NCBI GenBank assembly: GCA_022071965.1
Contig: JAJVIQ010000007.1
Coordinates: 124,001-188,000 of the forward strand
Source: Gammaproteobacteria bacterium
GTDB lineage: Bacteria; Pseudomonadota; Gammaproteobacteria; JAJPIJ01
Direction: 5' to 3'
DNA length: 64,000 nucleotides
Of the stretch, positions 8,084 to 30,168 are shown one piece after another; the first letter of the stretch is position 1; each line of letters begins with the position of its first letter. Both the position numbers and the translations under genes were made by a program. Under the pieces are notes generated by a model. The model did no database searches. It was not told where the DNA came from and saw only the letters and a list, made by a program, of their open reading frames with translations.

Positions 8084-8795
8084 ACGTCGATTCGATTACA
8101 TCGTCGTGGAAGGGCCCATCGGCGTCGGCAAGACGACGCTGGCGAAACGCCTCGCCCGCAGCCTGGATTCGGAGTTGATCCTGGAGGCGCCCGAGGAGAA
8201 TCCGTTCCTTGAGCAGTTCTACAGGAATCCGGAGCGCTCCGCATTGCCGACACAGCTGTCCTTCCTGTTCCAGCGCGCGAAACTGGCACAGATGCTGCGC
8301 CAGGGCGACATGTTCCGGCCTACGCGGGTCGCCGACTTCATGATGGAAAAGGATCGGCTGTTCGCACGCATCAACCTGACCAGCGAGGAGCTGAAGCTGT
8401 ACAATCTGGTTTACCAGCAGCTCGCCCCCGAGCCGGCCGCGCCCGATCTGGTGATCTATCTGCAGGCCCCGGTCGAGGTGCTGAGGGAGCGCATCGCACG
8501 CCGTCGGCACGATTATGAAAAGAACATATCCTCGGCGTATCTGACGCGTCTCGTGGAAGCCTACGTGGAGTTCTTCCATCACTACGCGCAGTCTCCGCTG
8601 TTGATGGTCAACGCGGCCGAGGTCAATCTCGCGGAGGGACGGGGCGAGTACGAAACCTTGCTGGCAATGGTTCGATCCGGCCCGGTGGGCAAACAGTTCG
8701 TCAATCTGCGCGCCGACGCCGGCCAGCCTGCCGAGCCGCCCAGTGCAATGGCCAGCCAGGGTTCATGGCGGGCTGCCCAGGAGGAACAGGCATGA
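8076..8795 (+). CDS. Deoxynucleoside kinase (deoxyadenosine/deoxycytidine kinase family)
   Basis: Likely phosphorylates salvaged deoxynucleosides. The 239-residue product opens [20 protein letters not shown], a P-loop of the dCK/dGK family, followed by [15 protein letters not shown], the [12 protein letters not shown] helix, MMEKDRLFA (the DR motif of this family) and [20 protein letters not shown] (lid region). It overlaps folK by eight bases and panB by four (ATGA), so it is translated within the folate/pantothenate operon although neither pathway needs it. Specificity cannot be settled from sequence. The C-terminal 40 residues are low-complexity and may be disordered. Confidence 0.88.
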
Positions 8796-9604
8796 GTCAG
8801 CAACCGCCGGTTCGCAACAAGATCTCCATAACGCATCTGCGCGATATGAAGGCCAACGGCGAGCGGATAGCCTGCCTCACCGCCTACGACGCCACGTTCG
8901 GCCGCGTGCTCGACGAGGCGGGGGTGGAGGTCATCCTGGTCGGTGATTCGCTCGGCATGGTGATGCAGGGCCACGACAGCACGCTACCGGTCACCGTCAG
9001 CGACATGATCTACCACTCCGCCAACGTGCGACGCGGTGTCGACCGTGCGATGCTCATGACGGACATGCCGTACATGAGTTACGCGCAACCCGAACAGGCG
9101 CTGTCCACGGCGGCGCGCATCATGAGCGAAGGGCGCGCGCAGATGGTGAAGCTGGAGGGCGGGGGCTGGGTGGCGGACACGGTGCGGCTTCTGACCGAAC
9201 GCGGCATTCCGGTATGCGGACACCTGGGTCTGCAGCCGCAGTCCATACACCGTCTGGGCGGTTACCGCGTGCAGGGCCGCGATACGGAGTCGGCGCGGCA
9301 GATCCGCGAGGACGCCCGTGTGCTGGCGGATGCCGGCGCCGTCATGCTGCTGCTGGAATGCGTTCCGCGATCGCTCGCTGCCGAGATTACACACGCGCTC
9401 TCGATACCGGTCATCGGCATCGGGGCGGGGAGCGACTGCGACGGACAGATACTAGTGCTCCACGACATGCTCGGTATCGGATTCTCGCATCGCTTTACGC
9501 GCGATTTCATGCAGGGCGGCCGCAGCATCACGGAGGCGATCGAGCGCTACGCGAGGGCCGTGAAATCCCGGGAATTCCCCGCCCACGAGCACGGTTTCGA
9601 TTGA
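8792..9604 (+). CDS. panB: 3-methyl-2-oxobutanoate hydroxymethyltransferase
   Basis: First committed step of pantothenate synthesis: ketoisovalerate plus methylene-THF gives ketopantoate. ATG 8792 overlaps the upstream stop and is preceded by AGGAGG at about 8779-8784, giving 270 residues; an in-frame ATG at 8765 is less likely. Seen are [28 protein letters not shown] with the Mg-binding Asp, [15 protein letters not shown] and [21 protein letters not shown] with the catalytic region. panC follows after 27 bp. Confidence 0.97.
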
Positions 9605-9631
9605 CGGCGGGCGCATCGATCTTCGTCGCAC

Positions 9632-10483
9632 ATGAGGCCTGTCGAGGACATCGACGAATTGCACGCTGCCCTCGCCTCGTGGCGTCGTGCCGGCGATACG
9701 ATCGCCCTGGTACCTACGATGGGCAATCTGCACGCGGGCCATCTTGCGCTGGTAAGGCGGGCCCGTGCCTTGGCCTCGCGCACCGTGGTGAGCATCTTTG
9801 TCAACCCGATGCAATTCGTGGAGGGTGAGGACTTCGATCGTTATCCGCGCACTCCCGAGGCGGACCAGCGTATGCTCGCGGAGGCGGGCGTCGACGCCGC
9901 ATTCATGCCATCGGCTGCCCAGATGTATCCGAACGGGTATGCCGATACGACCCGCGTGCACGTGCCGGGGCTGGAGAGCATCTACTGCGGCGCGTTCCGG
10001 CCGGGCCACTTCACCGGCGTGGCGACAGTCGTCGTCAAGTTGTTCAACCTGGTGCGGCCCGACTTCGCCATCTTCGGAGACAAGGACTTTCAGCAGTTGA
10101 TGCTCGTCAGGCGGATGGCCGCGGACTTGCGTTTCCCGATTGAGATCATCGGCGTGCCGACCGTGCGCGACGCCGACGGACTGGCCCTGTCCTCCCGCAA
10201 CAACTACCTTTCGGCGGAGGAGCGCGGGCGCGCACCGAGGCTGTATGAGATCCTGAGCGGGTTGGCCGCGAAGCTCGAGGCGGGGAGCACGGATTATGCC
10301 GCCTTGCAGGCCGAGGCCATGTCCGGGCTGTCTGCCGCGGGGTTCGTGCCGCAGTATGTCGCGATCTGCCGGCATGCCGATCTGCAGCCGCCGAGGAGCG
10401 CCGATCGTGAGCTGGTGATCCTGGCGGCGGCGTGGCTCGGCAACTCACGCCTCATCGATCACATCGAGGTCAGGGCCGGGTAG
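9632..10483 (+). CDS. panC: Pantoate-beta-alanine ligase
   Basis: Joins pantoate to beta-alanine using ATP. The 283-residue protein carries the nucleotidylyltransferase signature VPTMGNLHAGHLALV (HxGH), then VSIFVNPMQF, GHFTGVATVVVKLFNLVRPD, GDKDFQQLMLVRRM and the KMSKS-like LSSRNNYLS. It is the last gene of the pcnB-folK-dNK-panB-panC run and converges with the coiled-coil gene 23 bp away. No panD is present in the window. Confidence 0.97.
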   Translation: MRPVEDIDELHAALASWRRAGDTIALVPTMGNLHAGHLALVRRARALASRTVVSIFVNPMQFVEGEDFDRYPRTPEADQRMLAEAGVDAAFMPSAAQMYPNGYADTTRVHVPGLESIYCGAFRPGHFTGVATVVVKLFNLVRPDFAIFGDKDFQQLMLVRRMAADLRFPIEIIGVPTVRDADGLALSSRNNYLSAEERGRAPRLYEILSGLAAKLEAGSTDYAALQAEAMSGLSAAGFVPQYVAICRHADLQPPRSADRELVILAAAWLGNSRLIDHIEVRAG

Positions 10484-20446: not shown

Positions 20447-20951
20447 GAAAGCTGCCATCGACATCACGGCCTTGCTGAACGACATGGCAGGGCGTCTCGG
20501 CGCCTGCCTTCGAGAGCTCGGCCGCGGGGATTTCGTGCTAATTGGCATACGTACCGGCGGCGTGTGGGTGGCCGAGGAGTTGCACAAGCGGCTGAAGCCT
20601 CCCGAGCCGGTGGGTGGGCTGAATATCGCCTATCACCGGGACGATTTCGCGCGCAAGGGGCTGCACCCGACGGTGGAGCCGTCCGATCTGCCCTTCGGCG
20701 TGGAGAATCGGCACGTCGTGCTCGTCGACGACATTCTTTACACTGGCCGCACCGTTCGCGCGGCCTTGAACGAGATCTTCGACTACGGTCGTCCGGCGAG
20801 CGTGACGCTCGTCGTGCTCGTCGACAGGTGTGGTCGGGAATTGCCCATCGAGGCCAACCTGGTGGGTACCACGATGACGCTCGCGCCCGGCGAGCATGTT
20901 AAACTCACAGGACCTGAACCGCTCGCACTCAAGCTGCAGAAGTCGGCATGA
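20427..20951 (+). CDS. pyrR: PyrR bifunctional pyrimidine regulator / uracil phosphoribosyltransferase
   Basis: A 174-residue type I phosphoribosyltransferase. The PRPP loop [12 protein letters not shown] is at residues 98-109, and [19 protein letters not shown] lies near the start. In Bacillus PyrR binds pyr mRNA to attenuate it; in Pseudomonas the linked PyrR regulates pyrimidine genes. No PyrR-type anti-antiterminator stem was identified here, partly because the upstream sequence is coding. It overlaps ruvX and pyrB (ATGA). Confidence 0.94.
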
Positions 20952-21913
20952 CGGCACGTGACCTACAGATCAACGAACATGGTCGCCTGCAGCATTTCAT
21001 CACCGTCGAAGGGCTTCCCCGTCAGCTGTTGATCGACATACTCGATCGCGCCGAGGGCTTCGCCGGACTCGGTGGCGGTCGTGCCGTCAAGAAGGTTCCT
21101 CTGCTGCGCGGCAAGACGGTCATCAACCTGTTTTTCGAGCCGAGCACCCGCACGCGCACGACCTTCGAACTCGCGGCCAACCGCCTGTCCGCCGACGTAT
21201 TGAGCCTGAATATCGATGCCTCCTCCGCGAAGAAGGGCGAATCGCTGCTCGACACCCTGCGCAATCTGGAGGCGATGCACTGCGACATGTTTGTCGTGCG
21301 GCACAATCTGAGTGGCGCAGCACACTTCATCGCCACCCACGTCTCCCCGCATATCAGTGTCATCAACGGCGGCGACGGGCGGCATGCGCATCCGACGCAG
21401 GCGATGCTGGACGCCTTCACGATACGCCAGCACAAGCACGATTTCCGAATGCTCTCCGTCGCGATTGTCGGCGACATCCTGCATTCGCGCGTGGCACGCT
21501 CCAATATCCACGCCCTGCGCATCCTCGGGGTTCCCGACATCCGCGTGGTCGGTCCGCATACGCTCATACCGGCAGGCATCGAGACCTTGGGCGTACGCGT
21601 ATTCCAGGACCTGGAGGCCGGACTTCGCGACGTTGACGTGGTGATCATGCTCCGATTGCAGCAGGAACGGATGCGCGGCGCGCTGCTGCCCAGCTCCTCG
21701 GAGTACTTCCGGCTTTACGGGCTGACCGAGCAGCGCCTGAGGGTGGCCAAGCCGGACGTTATCGTCATGCACCCGGGCCCGATTAACCGCGGCGTGGAGA
21801 TCGACTCCGCAGTCGCCGACGGCAGCCGATCGGTCATCCTGCAGCAGGTCAGCCATGGTATCGCGGTGCGCATGGCCGTAATGGCGCTCTGTGCCGGCAG
21901 CCAGACGGAATGA
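20948..21913 (+). CDS. pyrB: Aspartate carbamoyltransferase catalytic subunit
   Basis: Makes carbamoyl-aspartate in pyrimidine synthesis. The 321-residue product has [13 protein letters not shown] at residues 62-74 (carbamoyl-phosphate loop), [54 protein letters not shown] and [12 protein letters not shown]. There is no pyrI regulatory subunit. Instead the next gene is an inactive dihydroorotase, the arrangement in which PyrB forms a dodecamer with PyrC' in Pseudomonas. Confidence 0.97.
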
Positions 21914-21923
21914 GGCGGGCGGC

Positions 21924-23201
21924 ATGCGTATAGCCATCAGCGGCGGCCACGTGATCGATCCGGCCAATGACATCGATGCCGTAGTGGACGTTTTCATCGA
22001 AGCCGGCCGGATCGCCGCGCTTGGACGCGCGCCAAAGGGCTACAAGGCCGAGCGGACGGTCAACGCCCGCGGTCTGCATGTCATTCCCGGACTCGTGGAG
22101 CTGAGCGCGCGCCTCGGCGAGCCCGGTTACACGCACAAGGGGACGATCGCCAGCGAGACGCGCGCCGCCGCCGCCGGCGGAGTAACCACCCTCTGCTGCC
22201 CGCCCGATACCCTCCCGGTCATCGATACCCCCGCGGTCGTGGAGTTGATACATCAGCGCGCTACCGCCAGCGGCAGGGCGCGGGTGGTATGTCTGGGCGC
22301 GCTGACGCGGGAGCTGAAGGGCGAGCTGCTGGCCGGCATGGGCGGGCTGCGGCAGGTCGGGTGCGTAGGCGTCAGCAACGCGCGCGTGCCGATCCCGAAC
22401 AGCGAGGTCATGCGCCGGGCGATGGAGTATGCCGCCACCATCGGGATGACGGTTTTCCTGCACGCCGAGGACCCGTGGCTGGCGGCGCAGGGCCACGTTC
22501 ACGAGGGGGCGACCAGCACGCGCATGGGACTGCCCGGGATCCCGGAGACCGCGGAGACCATTTCCGTGGCGCGCGATCTTCTGCTCATCGAGCAGACCGG
22601 GGTGCGGGCGCATTTCTGCCGCCTGTCGACGTCGCGCTCCGTCGCGATGGTCGCGGAGGCGAGGCGGCGAGGCCTGCCGGTCACTGCCGATGTGAGCATC
22701 CAGCATCTTCATCTCATCGACGAGGATGTCGCCGGCTACAACAGCCTGTGCCACGTCCGGCCGCCCCTGCGCGGTCGGCGGGATCGCGACGGCCTGCGCA
22801 AGGCGCTCCGCAAAGGCGTGGTGACGGCCATGTGCTGCGACCATCAGCCTCAGGATCAGGATGCGAAGAAGCTGCCGTTCGATGCCACGGAGCCGGGCGT
22901 ATCGGCGCTGGAGACCTGGCTGCCTCTGGCGCTGCGCCTCGTCAATGAGGGCGTACTGGACATGGCGGCCGCGATTGCCCAGATGACCGCCGCGCCGGCG
23001 GAGATACTCGGTATCGAGGCCGGAACCCTGAGCGAGGGCGCCACCGCGGACATATGCGTGTTCGATGCCAACGCTCAATGGGTGCTCAGCGAGGATAGCC
23101 TGGTGAGCCACGGGAAGAACTCGCCGTTCCTCGGCGAGACGATGCGTGGTCGCGTTTGCTATACGCTGTTGGGCGGCGCCATCGTCCACGAGTCGGCCTG
23201 A
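21924..23201 (+). CDS. pyrC': Dihydroorotase-like protein lacking metal ligands (PyrC')
   Basis: A 425-residue amidohydrolase-fold protein starting at ATG 21924, 10 bp after pyrB. Dihydroorotases carry HxH after the PGLVD strand; here the sequence is PGLVELSARLGEPG, with Ser61 and Arg63 in place of the two His. The usual FSDDG segment is VSNAR, and DHAPH is DHQPQ. Other family features remain: GVTTLCCPPDTLPV, FLHAEDPWL, HFCRLSTSRSV, LCHVRPPLR. It is therefore almost certainly catalytically dead and serves as the structural partner of PyrB, as PyrC' does in Pseudomonas. An active dihydroorotase must be encoded elsewhere. Confidence 0.92.
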   Translation: MRIAISGGHVIDPANDIDAVVDVFIEAGRIAALGRAPKGYKAERTVNARGLHVIPGLVELSARLGEPGYTHKGTIASETRAAAAGGVTTLCCPPDTLPVIDTPAVVELIHQRATASGRARVVCLGALTRELKGELLAGMGGLRQVGCVGVSNARVPIPNSEVMRRAMEYAATIGMTVFLHAEDPWLAAQGHVHEGATSTRMGLPGIPETAETISVARDLLLIEQTGVRAHFCRLSTSRSVAMVAEARRRGLPVTADVSIQHLHLIDEDVAGYNSLCHVRPPLRGRRDRDGLRKALRKGVVTAMCCDHQPQDQDAKKLPFDATEPGVSALETWLPLALRLVNEGVLDMAAAIAQMTAAPAEILGIEAGTLSEGATADICVFDANAQWVLSEDSLVSHGKNSPFLGETMRGRVCYTLLGGAIVHESA

Positions 23202-23286
23202 GCCGCGGTGCCGCGCGCTCCGGGGCGCCTCGCAAGTTCCGCGGAGGAGGACTTGCGGCTGCCGGCAACTCCCCGTTGCGAAACAG

Positions 23287-23517
23287 CTACTGCTGACTGC
23301 CCTCGTTGTCGAAGACCCGCCCCTGCGGCGGCTGCACCTGCTTGCGCAGGCTGGCAGCAATGAGTGTTACCAGGCCGAGGATGATTTCGTCGGCAAACGG
23401 GACGAAGTCGGGGACGAGGACATCGACGACAAAGAGGCCGAGCGCGAGCAGAAACAGCTGCGGAAATCGCAATCCCGAGGCGAACCGTAGCACCGCGCGC
23501 GGGGCGAGCTGCACCAT
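23287..23517 (-). CDS. Small uncharacterised membrane protein
   Basis: A 76-residue protein with an N-terminal basic stretch and one or two membrane segments: FLLALGLFVVDVLVPDFVPF and EIILGLVTLIAASL. The C-terminus is polar. It resembles small DUF6116-like proteins seen in Xanthomonadales-type genomes, but I am not certain of that family. It starts three bases after the stop of the barrel gene, so the two are translated together. The 3' end converges on pyrC'. Confidence 0.7.
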   Translation of the reverse strand: MVQLAPRAVLRFASGLRFPQLFLLALGLFVVDVLVPDFVPFADEIILGLVTLIAASLRKQVQPPQGRVFDNEGSQQ

Positions 23518-23520
23518 GGC

Positions 23521-24447
23521 CTAGAACCTGTACAAAAGGCCGGCCCGCAGCAGCAGGCCGTCGTAGTCGTTGTCGCCCTCGCCATATGCCCGGAAATGAA
23601 GAGCCGAGAGATCCAGGGCCAGGCTTTGCGACATGGCGAAGTTGATACCGAGCTCGCCCGTGAGGGTGTCGGCGTCCAACCGGTAGGCGAACCGATCGCC
23701 CGGATAGAAGCCGCCAACGGGGATCGCTGCGATGGGGCGCTCGCTGAGCGCCTCGTCGAGGCGCCACGTCTCGGAGGCGTTCAGAACCTGCGGCCGGGGT
23801 GTCGCCGTCGACACGACCTCCCCGGTCTGCCAGGCAAGCGTTCCGTACAAGGTCATCCTTTCCCCGATGTCGTAGTCGAGGTTGCCGGAGAAACGGTGGT
23901 TGTCCAGATCGAAGACATCCCCCTCCCAGGCCCGGCGCAGCTCATAGCGGTAGCTCACTCTTCCGACGAGCCGATCGGTGAAATTGCGTCCTAGCGCCAG
24001 ATTGAGATGCAATTGCGCGCCGTCGCGTATGTCGCTGTCGCGGTACTGCAGCAGCGCCGCAACCAGCTGAGCCTCGTACCACGGCGCCGAGAAGGAGGCG
24101 CCCGGCTGATACCGGAACGTGCTCGCGGCGCTCGCGGTCAGGGCGCTCAAATCATCCCACTCGGTGTGCGCGGCATACTCCAGCCGCAAGGAATGCAGCA
24201 GCCCGGAGCGGCTGTCGAGCACCTGCGGCACGTTGAGCGATCCCGACAACGCGATGATGTTGTCTTCCAGTACGTCCTCGTCGACCTCGGCGCGCCCGAC
24301 GTTGTCGTCATGCAGAAAATCGAGTGAGGCATCGAAATAGTGACTCTGCGCAGCGGCGTCACTGCCGGCCCCGAGGGACGCCAGGACGAGCAGGACCGCT
24401 GCCGTCGCGGGTCGGCGTGGACGGGCGTTAGGGAGGCCGGCTGTCAT
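23521..24447 (-). CDS. Predicted outer-membrane beta-barrel protein
   Basis: A 308-residue protein with an N-terminal signal peptide (AAVLLVLASLGAGSDAAAQ). The mature part consists of alternating polar/hydrophobic strands rich in Tyr, Leu and Asp, for example SHYFDASLDFLHDDN, GRVSYRYELRRAW and LYGTLAWQTGEVV, and ends LLRAGLLYRF with a terminal Phe, the usual outer-membrane signature. The frame is open further upstream to 25119, but that extension is antisense to the FecR-domain gene. It is divergent from the FecR gene across 114 bp. No specific family is recognised. Confidence 0.78.
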   Translation of the reverse strand: MTAGLPNARPRRPATAAVLLVLASLGAGSDAAAQSHYFDASLDFLHDDNVGRAEVDEDVLEDNIIALSGSLNVPQVLDSRSGLLHSLRLEYAAHTEWDDLSALTASAASTFRYQPGASFSAPWYEAQLVAALLQYRDSDIRDGAQLHLNLALGRNFTDRLVGRVSYRYELRRAWEGDVFDLDNHRFSGNLDYDIGERMTLYGTLAWQTGEVVSTATPRPQVLNASETWRLDEALSERPIAAIPVGGFYPGDRFAYRLDADTLTGELGINFAMSQSLALDLSALHFRAYGEGDNDYDGLLLRAGLLYRF

Positions 24448-24561
24448 GGCGCACAATTGTGAATCCGCCGTCGCTAACACACAAGCCGATGCAAACCGGC
24501 CGTGCTGCTGGTATTGTTGAATTCGCCGCATTCGGGCTGGTGGAAGATTCGGGGGAGCGAC

Positions 24562-25293
24562 ATGACTGCACGCGCACGGGATGTGGATGACCCACGCCGG
24601 CAGTTTCTGATTGCCCTGCTCACGGCGGGCGCATACATGCTGGGGCGGCCGCCGGATGCGGCGGCGGGACTGCTCGGTACCGTGCCGAGGCCTCTGCCGC
24701 CCGGCCGGTCGGTGCACACCCACTCCGGTGGAGTCCGCGTCAACGGGCGACCCGTGGATGTCGGAACGCTGATCCACGCCAGCGACGTGGTGGAGACGGA
24801 TGCCGGCGGCAAGCTCGTGTTCGTCGTCGGCAAGGACGCCTTTCTGCTGCGGGGGCAGAGCCGGCTGGAGCTGATCGCCGCCGGCGCCGAACAGTTTGCG
24901 GTGGGGACCTTGCGGCTCGCGACCGGGCGGCTGCTGTCGGTCTTTGGCAGGACCGCGCATCGTGTCGAGACCGTGACCGCCACCATCGGGATACGTGGCA
25001 CGGGTCTGTATGTCGACTCTGAACCGGATCGCACCTACGTGTGCACCTGTTATGGCACCACGGAGATCGCGGCCGTCGGCGATCCGCAGAGCAGCGAGAT
25101 CATCAAGGCCTCCCATCACGACGCGCCGCGTTACGTGCTTGCATCAGGCAGCAGCGGCAAACGCATCGAGGCCGCTCCATTCAAGGATCACACCGACGAG
25201 GAGCTGGAGTTGCTGGAGGCGCTCGTCGGCCGGACTACGCCATTCAGGCTGCCCGGTGACGCCTACGGGCGCCCACGTCGCAATACCTACTAA
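24562..25293 (+). CDS. FecR-domain protein with Tat-like signal
   Basis: A 243-residue protein starting at ATG 24562 after GGGGGAGCGA. The N-terminus DPRRQFLIALLTAGAYML has a twin-Arg (residues 12-13) and a hydrophobic stretch, suggesting Tat export. A FecR-like beta-domain follows: GGVRVNGRPVDVGTLIHASDVVETDAGGKLVFVVGKDAFLLRG, seen as shorter motifs, then RLATGRLLSVFG and TATIGIRGTGLYVDSEPD. The second half holds CTCYG and a predicted helical tail. Unlike FecR itself there is no cytoplasmic sigma-factor-binding part and no sigma gene nearby. Related FecR-domain proteins are often linked to outer-membrane barrels, as here. Confidence 0.82.
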   Translation: MTARARDVDDPRRQFLIALLTAGAYMLGRPPDAAAGLLGTVPRPLPPGRSVHTHSGGVRVNGRPVDVGTLIHASDVVETDAGGKLVFVVGKDAFLLRGQSRLELIAAGAEQFAVGTLRLATGRLLSVFGRTAHRVETVTATIGIRGTGLYVDSEPDRTYVCTCYGTTEIAAVGDPQSSEIIKASHHDAPRYVLASGSSGKRIEAAPFKDHTDEELELLEALVGRTTPFRLPGDAYGRPRRNTY

Positions 25294-25382
25294 CTCAGGC
25301 GCGGGGCAATTCAGCGGTAGTTCAGTCCCTCGCTCCTAGATTGGGCCACGTTCGGCAATCCTGCGAAAGCGAGGTAAAGCTC

Positions 25383-25778
25383 ATGCGTACCCTGAACAGA
25401 ATGTTGGTTTGTGTTGCGACGGTGATGACGACGCTGCTGCTGCCGTCCACGAGCTTCGCTCGGGACAACGTCTATCTCAATTTCGGATACAGCAGCGCTT
25501 ACCCGGCAACTCATTACCACCGGAACCGATACCCCGGCGTGATCCACGCAACGCCGTACTATCCGCTGCCCGTAACCCACTATCGCCACTATTACTCACC
25601 GCGCCACTATTACGCCGATCGATGCGCGCCGCGCGGGTACTTTGACGCTTACCGGCCGCGTCATCATGGCCGGCGCGACCTTCATCGCGACCATTGGCGC
25701 GGCGGCGATGACGGATATCATGGCGGTCGGCACGACCGGCGGGGCAGCAGCCACATCTTCGTCGAAAAGGACGACTGA
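25383..25778 (+). CDS. Secreted His/Tyr/Arg-rich small protein
   Basis: A 131-residue protein starting at ATG 25383 after GAGGT. A signal peptide (MLVCVATVMTTLLLPSTSFA) precedes a mature part that is rich in Tyr and His (YHRNRYPGVIHATPYYP, HYRHYYSPRHYY) and then Gly/His/Arg/Asp-rich (DYHGG-like runs near the C-terminus). Such composition could bind metal, but no domain is recognised. Its 3' end is followed by a hairpin terminator at 25794-25832. Confidence 0.7.
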   Translation: MRTLNRMLVCVATVMTTLLLPSTSFARDNVYLNFGYSSAYPATHYHRNRYPGVIHATPYYPLPVTHYRHYYSPRHYYADRCAPRGYFDAYRPRHHGRRDLHRDHWRGGDDGYHGGRHDRRGSSHIFVEKDD

Positions 25779-25793
25779 ATACGATTCGCGATG

Positions 25794-25832
25794 CCTGCAC
25801 GGGCCGGAGAGGCCCGTGCGGGTTGAGTTTTG
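25794..25832 (+). terminator. Intrinsic terminator after the His/Tyr-rich gene
   Basis: CCTGCACGGGCC and GGCCCGTGCGGG form a 12-bp stem (one G-T pair) around the loop GGAGA, followed by TTGAGTTTT. It lies 16 bp past the stop codon and ahead of the next gene, whose longer possible N-terminus would begin inside it. Confidence 0.75.
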
Positions 25833-25882
25833 CTGACTCCGCGGCTATTGTTTTCGCCCGGTTCGCAGGGCGACAGGGTACG

Positions 25883-26407
25883 ATGACCGCGACGCAGCTG
25901 CAGCTGCTTCAGGCGATGCCGATCTTCGGCGGCATCAATGAGGATGTGCTGAGCTACCTGCTCAGGTTCACCCATGTCGTCGCGCAGCCCTCCGGCGCCT
26001 ACTTCTTCCGCGAGAATGATCCTGGTGACTCGATGTTCGTGCTGGAGCGGGGAGAGGTCGACATCGTCAAGGGGTGGAAGGATCGCATGTACTTTCTCCG
26101 CAAGATCGGGATCGGCGACTGCTTCGGCATACTCACCCTTCTCGATCTCGGACCGCGCAGCGGGTCGGCGATCGCGCGCCAGGACTGCACCGCCATCGAG
26201 ATCTCGACGACGAACATGTACGAGATCTACAGGATGGATCGCAAGCAATACACCATTATGCTGATGAACCTGGCCAGGGAGGTCAGCCGGCGCCTCAGGG
26301 GCTCCGACACCCAGTTGTTCAGGACTCTCGTCGATCCCGTGGACGCCGGCAGGCATTGGATGGCCGGCGACCTATACGACTTCCCGGCGATCGAGACTCC
26401 GACCTGA
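25883..26407 (+). CDS. Stand-alone cyclic-nucleotide-binding domain protein
   Basis: A 174-residue protein starting at ATG 25883; an in-frame ATG at 25823 falls inside the terminator hairpin. It is a single CNB beta-barrel: LLQAMPIFGGINEDVLSYLL, GAYFFRENDPGDSMFVLERGEVDI, GDCFGILTLLDLGPRSGSAIA. The cassette keeps Pro-Arg-Ser but has FGIL where cyclic-AMP binders have FGE, so the ribose-binding Glu is missing. A helix follows, and there is no HTH, kinase or other output domain. Function unknown. Confidence 0.82.
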   Translation: MTATQLQLLQAMPIFGGINEDVLSYLLRFTHVVAQPSGAYFFRENDPGDSMFVLERGEVDIVKGWKDRMYFLRKIGIGDCFGILTLLDLGPRSGSAIARQDCTAIEISTTNMYEIYRMDRKQYTIMLMNLAREVSRRLRGSDTQLFRTLVDPVDAGRHWMAGDLYDFPAIETPT

Positions 26408-26439
26408 AGTCAAGCCTGCGGGCGACACCCGGCGGGCGC

Positions 26440-26445
26440 TATAAT
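26440..26445 (+). promoter_or_regulatory. Likely -10 element of rep
   Basis: A perfect TATAAT lies 33 bp after the upstream stop and 37 bp before the rep GTG. The -35 region is poor. Confidence 0.4.
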
Positions 26446-26481
26446 CCGACCTACCCCAGACCCGGAACAGCGAGTTTTACC

Positions 26482-28452
26482 GTGCGCCAGTTGAATTCCG
26501 CGCAGCGTGCCGCCGTGCGCTGCCTGGACAGGCCACTGATGGTCCTGGCCGGCGCCGGCAGCGGCAAGACCAGCGTAATCACCGAGAAGATCGCCTATCT
26601 GCTGGAGGGCGGCGCGGCCGAGCCGCGGCAGATCGTGGCTGTCACGTTTACCAACAAGGCGGCGCGCGAAATGCGCGAACGCGTCGGCCAACGCATAAGG
26701 GGACGCGACCTGTCGGCATTGCGGGTGTCGACGTTCCACGCCCTCGGCCTTGCGATCCTGCGGGAGGAGATCACGCGCCTCGGATACCGACCGCGCTTCA
26801 CGATCTATGACGGCCAGGATGCCTGCCAGCTACTCGCGGATATCCTGGTCTGCGACGCGAATGACCCGCGCGTGCCGGCGGCGCAACAGCGCATCTCGCG
26901 ATGCAAGAATGCGGGGGAAACGCAAGCGCCGCCGCCAGACGACATGCAGGCGCTATGCGAGGAGTTCGACCGCCAGATGCGAGCGCGCAACGCGGTGGAT
27001 CTCGACGATCTCATCGCATTGCCGGCGCGACTTCTGGCCAACGACAGCGAGGTCCGCGCACGCTGGCAGGATCGGGTCGGATATCTGCTCGTGGACGAGT
27101 ATCAGGATACCAACGGCGCGCAGTATGCGTTGATGAAACTGCTGGTGGGATCCCGGGCGCGGTTCACGGTCGTTGGCGACGACGATCAGTCGATCTATGC
27201 GTGGCGTGGCGCGCAGCCGGAGAATATCCGGATGCTCGGTCAGGATTTCCCGGCGCTGGAGGTAATAAAGCTCGAGCAGAACTATCGCTCCACGCGCCGC
27301 ATCCTCAAGGCCGCCAATCACCTGATCAGCCGGAATCCGCATGTTTACGAGAAGCGCCTGTGGAGCGATCTCGGCGTCGGTGATCCCATTCGTGTGATTC
27401 GCACGCACGACGAGAACGACGAGGCCCGCCGGGTGGTTGCGCAGATACTGCATCACCGTCTGATGGTGCGGGGCAAGTACGGCGATTATGCGATTCTCTA
27501 CCGCGGCAACCACCAGTCCCGGCCATTCGAGCAGACTTTGAGGGAACACGGCGTGCCATATGTCGTCAGTGGCGCAATGTCCTTCTTCGAGCATGGCGAG
27601 GTGCGTGACCTGCTCGCCTACATGCGTTTGCTGGCCAATCCGACGGACGACGGTGCGTTCCTGCGGATTGTCAACACCCCGCGCCGCGAGATCGGACCGG
27701 CAACCGTGGAGAGGCTGGCCGCCTTCGCGAGGACACGCGATGCGAGTCTCTTTGACGCCTGTTGGGAGGAGGAATTCCTGGCGGCTCTTGGCGAGCGCGT
27801 GCGGGCGCGGATGCGGGATTTCGCGGCGCAGGTCTCCGCGTGGTCGGAGCGGGCGGAGTCGGAACCGGCCGCGCCCCTGGTGACGGAGATCGTCGAGGTC
27901 ATCGGATATCGCCGCTGGCTGGAGTCACGGGCGGACAGCCCCGCGGAGACAGAGCGGCGCCATGGCAATGTCGAGGAACTGCTGGCATGGATCGCCCGGC
28001 TGTCGTCCTCGCCAACGGGCGATCGGCCTCTGCCGGAGGTACTCAATCAGCTTGCACTCATGGAGGCGCTGACCGAGCGCACCGCCGATGATCACGCCGA
28101 CCGGGTCCGCCTGATGACGCTGCACGCTGCCAAGGGATTGGAGTTCCCGCACGTCTTCCTCGCCGGTGCGGAGGAGGATTTGCTGCCGCACCGCGCGAGC
28201 CTTGAGTCCGGCAACGTCGAGGAGGAGCGTCGGCTTGCGTACGTAGGGATCACGCGGGCGAAAGCTACCCTGACCTTTACCTGGGCGGCCGCCCGTCGCC
28301 GCTATGGTGAGACGCGCGACTGCCAGATAAGTCGATTTATCAATGAGTTGCCAGGTGACGACCTGGAGTGGATAGGCGTCGATCAGGACACTCGGGTCTC
28401 GCCCGAGGAGGGGCGGCGGGCGTTGGCATCACTGAAGGGCCTGGTGCGGTAG
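26482..28452 (+). CDS. rep: ATP-dependent DNA helicase Rep
   Basis: Superfamily 1A 3'-5' helicase that clears proteins ahead of replication forks. The frame is open far upstream, but GTG 26482 gives RQLNSAQRAAVRCLDRPLMVLAGAGSGKT with Walker A at residues 24-30 and a 656-residue product close to E. coli Rep. Motifs Ia (TFTNKAAREMRERV), II (LLVDEYQDTN), III (VGDDDQSIYAWRGA), IV (LEQNYRST), V (LMTLHAAKGLEFPHVF) and VI (EERRLAYVGITRAK) are present. LEFPHVFLAG and the length favour Rep over UvrD. Confidence 0.94.
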   Translation: MRQLNSAQRAAVRCLDRPLMVLAGAGSGKTSVITEKIAYLLEGGAAEPRQIVAVTFTNKAAREMRERVGQRIRGRDLSALRVSTFHALGLAILREEITRLGYRPRFTIYDGQDACQLLADILVCDANDPRVPAAQQRISRCKNAGETQAPPPDDMQALCEEFDRQMRARNAVDLDDLIALPARLLANDSEVRARWQDRVGYLLVDEYQDTNGAQYALMKLLVGSRARFTVVGDDDQSIYAWRGAQPENIRMLGQDFPALEVIKLEQNYRSTRRILKAANHLISRNPHVYEKRLWSDLGVGDPIRVIRTHDENDEARRVVAQILHHRLMVRGKYGDYAILYRGNHQSRPFEQTLREHGVPYVVSGAMSFFEHGEVRDLLAYMRLLANPTDDGAFLRIVNTPRREIGPATVERLAAFARTRDASLFDACWEEEFLAALGERVRARMRDFAAQVSAWSERAESEPAAPLVTEIVEVIGYRRWLESRADSPAETERRHGNVEELLAWIARLSSSPTGDRPLPEVLNQLALMEALTERTADDHADRVRLMTLHAAKGLEFPHVFLAGAEEDLLPHRASLESGNVEEERRLAYVGITRAKATLTFTWAAARRRYGETRDCQISRFINELPGDDLEWIGVDQDTRVSPEEGRRALASLKGLVR

Positions 28453-28724
28453 GCATTGCCCGGGCGCCACCGCCGCCTGTCGTCCGACCCCGACATTGCA
28501 GCCGTCCGAGGCACGTCCGGCGATCCTAGGCACGCCGCACCTATCTTCATATATCGCTTTAGATATTTAGGTCATGTACATGAATTAAATGCTGCATGGC
28601 AGCCCGGTGATCGGGTGGTGCGGCACTGCCTTCGGGCTTGGCATATCGGCTGCAATGTAGTTACTGCACACGCAGGCAGGCGTGTGGGAATTCAGGGACT
28701 CAATCAAGAACGAGGCTTGGACAC
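28453..28724. other. AT-rich gap between rep and a small gene
   Basis: The middle of this 272-bp gap (about 28545-28600) is distinctly AT-rich for this genome, with TATATCGCTTTAGATATTTA and a TGTACATGAATTAAAT run, and probably holds the promoter of the following small gene. An open frame across it (28456-28881) has no family resemblance and is not called. Confidence 0.4.
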
Positions 28725-28991
28725 ATGGGATTACAGCTGGTCGTCGATAACACCGCACGGGCGCAGGCCTACAGCACTTCGCTGCCCGCCGGGACCCCGT
28801 ATTTCGATGGTCTGCTCGAGCGCACGCGCGCCCAGCTTCGCGAGGACCTGCGTTACTACCAGAACCGCCTGCGCGACCTGAAACAGATGGAGCCACACAA
28901 CCTCGCGGAACTGCGCGCACTGTATCGCTCACGCGAGCAATACATCCTGCGACTGTTGCGCACGATGGGTGACCGGCTGCAGGCGATCTGA
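28725..28991 (+). CDS. Small uncharacterised helical protein
   Basis: An 88-residue protein starting at ATG 28725. After an N-terminal MGLQLVVDN segment, residues 28-85 are strongly helical and charged (LLERTRAQLREDLRYYQNRL, LAELRALYRSREQYILRLL), with no signal peptide or membrane segment. No family is recognised. Its reality is supported by an AT-rich upstream region and a strong intrinsic terminator 39 bp after the stop. A longer frame from 28638 is possible. Confidence 0.65.
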   Translation: MGLQLVVDNTARAQAYSTSLPAGTPYFDGLLERTRAQLREDLRYYQNRLRDLKQMEPHNLAELRALYRSREQYILRLLRTMGDRLQAI

Positions 28992-29325
28992 ACCGAATTT
29001 GTCGCTGTTCCCTTCTCGTTGGGACCTCTGCCCGCCTTAGGCGGGCTTTTTTTGTCCGTATCGCCGGCTGTCCAGCCGCCACGCAATTTGCAAGCGCACG
29101 CTATGACCCGGCGCACCAGCAGCGGTAATGTTCACGACATTCCGATCGGGACGATCGGGACGGATCGGCCCGCCACCATTCCGGCCAGACCCGTGGCGGG
29201 GGCAGTGTAGGAAGAACGGGGCGGCCTGGCGTCATTTCAGATAACCGGTGCGCCGTCGGCGCAGCCTGAGCTGAGGCCGCTTCCACGGCGGCGTTGGTGC
29301 CCCGATGCGTGCCATTGCCCCCTGT
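28992..29325. other. Convergent gap before ttcA
   Basis: This 334-bp stretch holds the plus-strand terminator at 29030-29053. The rest, between two 3' ends, shows no convincing gene on either strand; short frames near 29100-29290 lack any family features. Confidence 0.5.
29030..29053 (+). terminator. Intrinsic terminator
   Basis: GCCCGCC, loop TTA, GGCGGGC, then seven T residues: a textbook rho-independent terminator 39 bp after the small helical protein gene. Confidence 0.93.
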
Positions 29326-30168
29326 TCATTGATCGTCAGAGGGGATCAGCCAACCTTTTGCCGCGCGTCCGCTCCCCTCGCCCAGCGATCTGAAATCGAA
29401 CACGGAGCGATCGGCCAGATGCGAGGGGCTGACCGTTTGTAGCGCGGAAAAGATCGTCTCGAGCCTTCCGGGGTAATGCCTTTCCCATTCCTTCAACATC
29501 GACTTGATCTGCCTGCGCTGCAGATTTTCCTGGTTGCCGCACAGGTTGCACGGAATGATCGGGAAGGCGCGCCGCACGGCGTATTCCGCGATGTCGTCCT
29601 CCTTGCAGTAGGCAAGCGGCCGGATGACGATGTGGGCGCCGTCGTCACTTCGTAGTTTAGGCGGCATCGCCTTGAGCGTGCCGCCGAAGAACATGTTGAG
29701 GAACAGCGTCTCGATTATGTCATCGCGATGATGGCCGAGGGCGATCTTGCTCATGCCGTGTTCGCGTGCGAACCGGTAAAGAATCCCGCGCCTGAGACGT
29801 GAGCAAAGGCTGCACATGGTCTTGCCTTCGGGCACGACGCGCTTGACGATGCTGTAGGTGTCTTCATCGATGACGTGGAACGGGATGCCGAGGTGGCGAA
29901 GGTAGTCCGGAAGCACTTGCTCCGGGAAACCGGGCTGCTTTTGGTCAAGATTCACCGCCACTATCTCGAAATCCACCGGGGCACTACGCCGCAGCGACAG
30001 CAGCACATCCAACAGCGTGTAGGAATCCTTGCCCCCCGAAAGGCCCACCATGACCCGATCGCCGTGCTCGATCATGTTGAAGTCCTCGATCGCGCGACCG
30101 ACGTTGCGCCGCAGGCGCTTGGCGAGCTTGTTGTACTCCAGTTCGTGTTTCTGGGCGATTGAAAGCAT
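29326..30168 (-). CDS. ttcA: tRNA 2-thiocytidine biosynthesis protein TtcA
   Basis: Thiolates C32 of certain tRNAs using ATP and an iron-sulfur cluster. The 280-residue protein has the PP-loop SGGKDS at residues 44-49, the Cys pair [11 protein letters not shown] (Cys119, Cys122), [28 protein letters not shown] and a second pair PCNLCGNQ (Cys207, Cys210). These match TtcA rather than TilS. It is on the minus strand with a downstream gap and 160 bp upstream to the cold-shock gene. Confidence 0.96.

Follow-up and report, generated by a model that had tools for sequence, protein, structure and literature searches.

Proteins with a FecR domain are usually read as anti-sigma regulators of the PupR/FecR type. 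Here we describe a gene pair from a gammaproteobacterial genome (GCA_022071965.1, contig JAJVIQ010000007.1) in which a protein with a predicted FecR fold is encoded divergently from a predicted 12-stranded outer-membrane beta-barrel. The pair lies within a stretch of 64,000 nucleotides, the whole of which is hereafter called the window. Its FecR protein shares with PupR/FecR-type regulators the FecR fold (residues 72-214 of the model, which is also the entire span of the alignment with PupR, a protein with a C-terminal STN-like lobe). However, it lacks the anti-sigma N-terminus, carries a signal resembling those of the twin-arginine translocation (Tat) pathway, and has an invariant CxC/His/His set; no sigma factor is encoded nearby, and the 12-stranded barrel stands in place of a TonB receptor. 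The IGIRGT core motif and the FecR region of Pfam also connect the protein with ordinary periplasmic FecR-domain proteins, but the Cys pair is absent from the four that we compared, which come from the window's genome and from relatives of it.

Other envelope systems offer partial likenesses. In the Pco/Cop copper systems (PcoA/PcoB, CopA/CopB), a Tat-exported metalloprotein has a barrel partner. This is a likeness in manner of working only: the window's FecR protein is not a multicopper oxidase, given that Pfam finds no Cu-oxidase domains in it or its family, and PcoB (7pge) fits the barrel model with a Z score of 14.3 that many other barrels exceed. Some barrel relatives sit with exported proteins bearing CxxCH motifs, as might be expected of MtrAB-type porin-cytochrome conduits, but the barrel has 12 strands, the window's locus encodes no cytochrome, and the MtrB_PioB family of Pfam matched only 1 of 21 barrels (E 0.005). 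The KdgM/NanC oligosaccharide porins share the 12-stranded fold (KdgM 4pr7_A, Z 19.6, root-mean-square deviation (rmsd) 2.0, 170 aligned residues), whereas sequence identity is 16% and the gene context is different. Fold alone shows no function, and the KdgM likeness is a fold match only, as no KdgM family is among the Pfam matches listed for the barrels. Neither the barrel-FecR pair nor a Tat-exported FecR family is described in the titles and abstract openings of the literature consulted.

A conserved divergent gene pair

Scanning genomes with the FecR protein as query yielded 16 loci in named records, including Gallionella, Gallionellales, Sterolibacterium, Magnetococcales and several Gammaproteobacteria. 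In a sample of 369 genomes of the class, the single FecR query matched 31 at 1e-12, and an alignment of the FecR family matched 34 at 1e-10. The 53 loci collected (handles beginning with L; those of genomes begin with G) comprise 52 with a FecR gene and one, L028 from genome G002, with a remnant only. Gene maps came from a simple codon-usage caller, which missed the FecR gene in L016, L029, L060, L082, L187 and L195; the linkage counts also use profile matches on all open reading frames (ORFs).

In 21 of the 52 loci, FecR has a barrel homologue as its immediate neighbour, 20 times divergently oriented and once (L076) in the same direction. At seven further loci (L005, L027, L064, L065, L068, L071 and L072), the barrel is part of a more extended cluster, together with an exported repeat protein of very large size. 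L005 and L065 are nearly copies of one another; the barrel of the former would fall past the end of the examined stretch and was unseen, and the latter was completed with L155. The contigs of L018 and L073 end just upstream of FecR, where a partner could not be seen. In the 17 divergent pairs measured, the intergenic gap is 37-204 base pairs (bp). The barrel and FecR genes thus form a conserved divergent pair. An earlier note on this DNA had grouped five genes here and offered gene neighbourhood as the check; the barrel and FecR genes prove to be neighbours in many genomes, so the grouping survives for those two.

Of the 369 class genomes, 34 have FecR and 21 the barrel; the two occur together in 16, where about 1.9 such genomes would be expected (Fisher p 9e-15, a value that overstates the association, and to that extent counts against it, because the barrel profile was built from FecR-adjacent barrels and the genomes share ancestry). 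A tree of 72 FecR rows meets this objection in part: 27 of the 28 barrel-linked rows fall in one 34-row clade with a support of 97 in the SH-like approximate likelihood ratio test (SH-aLRT). The exception is the additional, fast-evolving copy of L027, a locus with two FecR genes in tandem (8381-9770). Given that nearly all linked rows share one clade, the association most likely arose a single time and has persisted while its chromosomal surroundings changed repeatedly; the clade spans gamma- and betaproteobacterial records with differing flanking genes.

Two sister genomes of the window's family, G002 and G003, provide a closer view. G003 has the pair. In G002, where both flanks align, a single deletion extends from within FecR almost to the end of the barrel gene, leaving a C-terminal tail of each. 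Joint loss by one event fits a barrel-FecR unit without proving one. The scar, at L028:4200-4700, adjoins a tRNA-Ser-like sequence.

The FecR family extends beyond this clade. A member was found in 47 of 299 genomes of a phylum sample, 44 of which were new, and no shared FecR partner was apparent in those fetched loci of this set, 18 of 20, whose gene map could be read. Ser/Thr kinase-like genes were noticed near FecR at L067:3028-4419, L077:2948-4366 and L003:4814-6313, the first with a C-terminal domain like those that bind cyclic nucleoside monophosphates (cNMP).

Predicted features of the two proteins

Neither protein of the pair passes its Pfam cut-off. The FecR protein scores 17.2 bits with the FecR family (cut-off 24) and the Pfam match of the barrel 22 (cut-off 28.7), NCBIfam has no useful match for either, and searches of PDB sequences gave nothing for FecR (best E 3.8) and Opa60 at E 0.11 for the barrel. 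Structure models settle both cases in favour of a predicted FecR fold and a predicted 12-stranded barrel. The AlphaFold2 model of the FecR protein (predicted local distance difference test, pLDDT, 88.5) matches PupR 6ovk_R with Z 15.0 (rmsd 2.7, 131 aligned) and BDI_1681 (4m0n) with Z 13.7. The first unrelated entry follows at Z 4.8, and on this model the fold is that of FecR. Moreover, 42 of 46 family members match Pfam FecR at E 0.1 or better.

These 46 rows are the window's protein and 45 of the 52 reference rows; L029 (the copy from the window's own genome), L016, L017, L018, L076, L082 and the paralogue at L027:8381 were left out. The twin arginine is kept in 43 of them, the other three reading QR, QR and NR, and L16 of the signal is kept in at least 90%. 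The window's protein has an RRxFL motif and a hydrophobic stretch, after which A33-x-A35, read by eye, is a likely cleavage site. In the Magnetococcales copies L017 and L018, the signal ends by eye in LSGC, a lipobox. Just 11 residues precede R12, which leaves no room for a cytoplasmic anti-sigma domain, and the Pfam scan of the protein finds no anti-sigma N-terminal domain. These sequence features suggest export via Tat, a pathway established to carry folded, cofactor-bearing proteins. In G220:C14, G370:C11 and G385:C104, the FecR match falls in two nearby pieces of one open frame (296, 314 and 333 amino acids), which suggests an insertion within the protein.

The most conspicuous feature of the family is a set of conserved Cys and His residues. 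Among 72 homologues, counted after dropping L155-L158 and L192 as repeats along with identical C-termini, Y159, C161, C163, G165 and H186 are kept in all, H210 in 71, and H185 in 63 (otherwise Tyr or Arg). The two cysteines are the sole ones in 32 of the 46 family proteins. The model places C161 and C163 at i and i+2 of strand 157-171 and hence on one face; the hairpin partner of this strand, 174-183, stops just before H186, and H210 stands immediately ahead of helix 212-221. This is what a Cys2-His2 metal site or a [2Fe-2S] site could look like, and the conservation of these residues suggests that the protein probably binds metal. Export by Tat would fit such a site.

The AlphaFold2 model of the barrel (pLDDT 90.9) has 12 strands in a closed, even-stranded barrel behind a signal peptide. 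Besides KdgM and PcoB, it matches a COG4313 channel (Z 18.9), OMPLA (16.4), LpxR (14.8) and autotransporter domains; no match stands out, and thus no function follows from the fold. An enzyme of the LpxR or OMPLA type was considered and rejected, as many barrels score like these two and nothing specific supports it.

The genomic contexts of barrel relatives suggest a redox or metal role. A class search, in which six candidates per genome were scored, gave 26 barrel places in 21 genomes. As read from gene maps, 11 are directly beside FecR, 9 are in haem-protein-type clusters, 4 are with an exported protein of about 200 amino acids, and 2 are elsewhere. FecR is also present in 6 of the 9 haem-type clusters, and CxxCH motifs were seen in 8 (uncounted in L027). 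One product of these clusters is a large cadherin/Ig-repeat protein, 963-2461 amino acids long where complete, which in most cases has one CxxCH close to its beginning; another is a lipoprotein-like protein (612-784 amino acids) with 2-3 CxxCH in the six counted (L146, L150, L151, L155, L157 and L158); at L150, the lipoprotein-like protein was seen and the repeat protein was not. The combination of cadherin/Ig-repeat protein, barrel relative and CxxCH lipoprotein looks like a surface cytochrome system.

Exported cadherin/Ig-repeat clusters occur at L157:4734-12127, L155, L156, L158, L064, L027, L146 and L151, with FecR present or absent. At L151:1126-4850, a CRP-type regulator, a nucleotide cyclase with an FHA domain and a Ser/Thr kinase adjoin the barrel-cytochrome cluster. 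Three of the four places with the protein of about 200 amino acids adjoin a large sensor, the barrel relative lying between the two (L148:4602-8525, L149:6349-10263 and L154:3301-6824); the sensor of L148 is of dCache-HAMP-GGDEF-EAL architecture. The smaller protein appears cupredoxin-like by eye, and its only Pfam match is a weak one to a carboxypeptidase-regulatory family.

A possible joint role and its alternatives

We propose that the pair is a two-gene envelope module in which the barrel and a Tat-exported FecR metalloprotein act jointly in metal or electron handling, a reading we regard as evenly poised between right and wrong. The FecR protein would be exported through the Tat pathway, keeping the FecR fold and having no cytoplasmic anti-sigma part. 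C161-x-C163, H186 and H210 would bind a metal or a metal cluster acquired ahead of export, and the 12-stranded outer-membrane barrel encoded on the opposite strand would be the partner with which the FecR protein handles metal or electrons between the periplasm and the cell surface. The earlier note had the exported FecR domain acting with the barrel at the cell surface. Conserved neighbourhood bears out that the two belong together, joint action is plausible, and the place may be the surface or the periplasm.

Several observations weigh against this proposal. A profile search found no barrel in 18 of the 34 FecR genomes of the class sample, and it matched only 1 of the 44 new FecR genomes of the phylum sample, on a contig other than that of its FecR. 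Given that the family also occurs without the barrel, the FecR protein should have some role that does not depend on the barrel, which would be a clade-specific partner. Regarding export, the TAT_signal family of Pfam matched just 1 of the 46 members at E 0.1, and L186 and L187 of the phylum set lack the twin arginine, yet keep the Cys/His set. Pfam matches the FecR proteins to no metal-binding family and gives only the weak FecR match. No cytochrome is found at the window's own locus. Finally, 11 of the 13 most conserved barrel positions are on the presumed outer side, but the mean conservation of the two faces does not differ (difference -0.01, permutation p 0.55), and a one-sided face is not used in our argument. 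The barrel alignment comprises the window's barrel and 20 of 26 collected barrels, leaving out L029 (identical to the window) and the cut or over-long frames of L009, L011, L060, L071 and L072.

The most serious alternative dispenses with the metal. The CxC would be a redox-active or structural disulfide, H186 and H210 would be structural, and the pair would serve envelope assembly or surface anchoring. A CxC pair is able to form a disulfide in the periplasm, as would suit proteins whose sole cysteines are mostly these two, and Tat also carries some cofactor-free proteins. However, both histidines match the cysteines in invariance and are not needed for a plain disulfide, and the haem-protein contexts of barrel relatives also count against this reading. 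We consider this explanation possible, though on the unlikely side.

A broader version of the metalloprotein proposal must be treated as doubtful. It would make the FecR proteins a widespread class of Tat-exported FecR-fold metalloproteins, one clade of which recruited the 12-stranded barrel; part of that clade would also have recruited cadherin-repeat CxxCH proteins and multihaem lipoproteins, passing metal or electrons across the outer membrane.

Neutral adjacency, in which two unrelated exported proteins came together by chance or through transfer of a mobile block, appears improbable. In its favour, two genera of one family have the pair at different positions in the chromosome, in one of them beside the tRNA-Ser-like sequence. 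Against it, 27 rows of the 34-row clade keep the link, in gamma- as well as betaproteobacterial records and amid different flanking genes.

Flanking genes and implications for the FecR family

The five genes between a pyrC-like gene (21891-23201, plus strand) and a rep/UvrD-type helicase gene (26482-28452, plus strand) are located where the earlier note had placed them, as ORFs, Pfam and structure models confirm (Table 1). The gap shared by the barrel and FecR genes has the length that had been given, but a sigma-70 scan found no sigma-70-like site in it, so the description of this gap as a promoter region was not upheld. The barrel and DUF6116 genes, being only 3 bp apart, are probably co-transcribed.

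Table 1. Features of the barrel-FecR locus and adjoining genes, in window positions (aa, amino acids; CNB, cNMP-binding domain).
Feature	Position	Strand	Remarks
DUF6116 small membrane protein, 76 aa	23287..23517	-	3 bp after barrel gene; local passenger
Predicted 12-stranded outer-membrane beta-barrel, 308 aa	23521..24447	-	One half of conserved pair; AlphaFold2 model and linkage
Divergent intergenic region, barrel-FecR	24448..24561		114 bp
Predicted FecR-fold protein, 243 aa, Tat-like signal R12-R13-x-F-L	24562..25293	+	Other half of pair; alignments, model, PupR match
R12-R13 twin-arginine codons	24595..24600	+	RR in 43/46 rows of FecR alignment
C161-T-C163 codons, putative metal ligands	25042..25050	+	Kept in 72/72 homologues
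His/Tyr-rich exported protein, 131 aa, orphan	25383..25778	+	Outside pair; no Pfam match, no homologue in 19 other relatives
Terminator-like hairpin, strong, 13 pairs	25793..25823	+	Between His/Tyr-rich and CNB genes
Lone CNB protein, 174 aa	25883..26407	+	Pfam; pyrC-ttcA neighbourhood by synteny in G002 and G003

The DUF6116 protein, a clear Pfam member (57.2 bits, cut-off 27), was found in 1 of 12 genomes, the window's own, with no homologue in the 11 other relatives. The His/Tyr-rich protein, in which His and Tyr make up 27% of 104 mature residues, was likewise confined to the window's own genome among 20, and the profiles of both proteins matched no other of the 53 loci. The CNB protein (Pfam cNMP_binding, 52.9 bits, cut-off 27.5) differs from Crp/Fnr regulators in having no DNA-binding helix-turn-helix in the Pfam scan. 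In both G002 and G003, its orthologue (70% identity) lies downstream of pyrC and is followed by a small protein, which by eye resembles that encoded at 28638-28991 of the window, and then by a gene of ttcA type; neither a barrel nor a FecR gene lies between. The pair of G003 is on another contig. Either the pair entered the pyrC-CNB-ttcA block or the block lost it. The DUF6116, His/Tyr-rich and CNB genes are incidental local neighbours.

A single envelope-signalling unit made up of all five genes, in which the CNB protein would be the cytoplasmic reader, as the earlier note had suggested, is therefore very improbable. The genes are adjacent in the window, and the regulator, cyclase and kinase of L151 stand beside a barrel relative. 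However, the L151 regulator has a DNA-binding domain that the window's CNB protein lacks, a terminator-like hairpin precedes the CNB gene, and CNB, DUF6116 and the pair occur together in none of the 53 loci except the window's own. Such a unit was rejected on synteny and on the missing homologues in the relatives examined, and the reader role finds no support, as the CNB orthologue stays at pyrC where the pair is elsewhere (G003) or reduced to a scar (G002).

Least probable of all is signalling of the FecIRA/PupIRB type, with the FecR protein as anti-sigma factor and the barrel as its outer-membrane transducer, for even though the FecR fold matches to PupR and BDI_1681 are real, the anatomy largely refutes it: the few residues before the twin arginine hold no cytoplasmic anti-sigma domain, a 12-stranded barrel of this size is not a TonB-dependent receptor, and no sigma-factor gene was seen between pyrC and rep (ORF list 20500-29500 and Pfam of flanking genes).

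A family that has the FecR fold without the anatomy of the regulators, together with invariant Cys and His residues and a signal of Tat-like type, would carry the wrong name wherever annotation relied on the domain alone; this concerns 34 of the 369 class genomes and 47 of the 299 phylum genomes. If these proteins bind metal, they would represent a new kind of periplasmic metalloprotein, and the barrel partner points to an envelope pathway.

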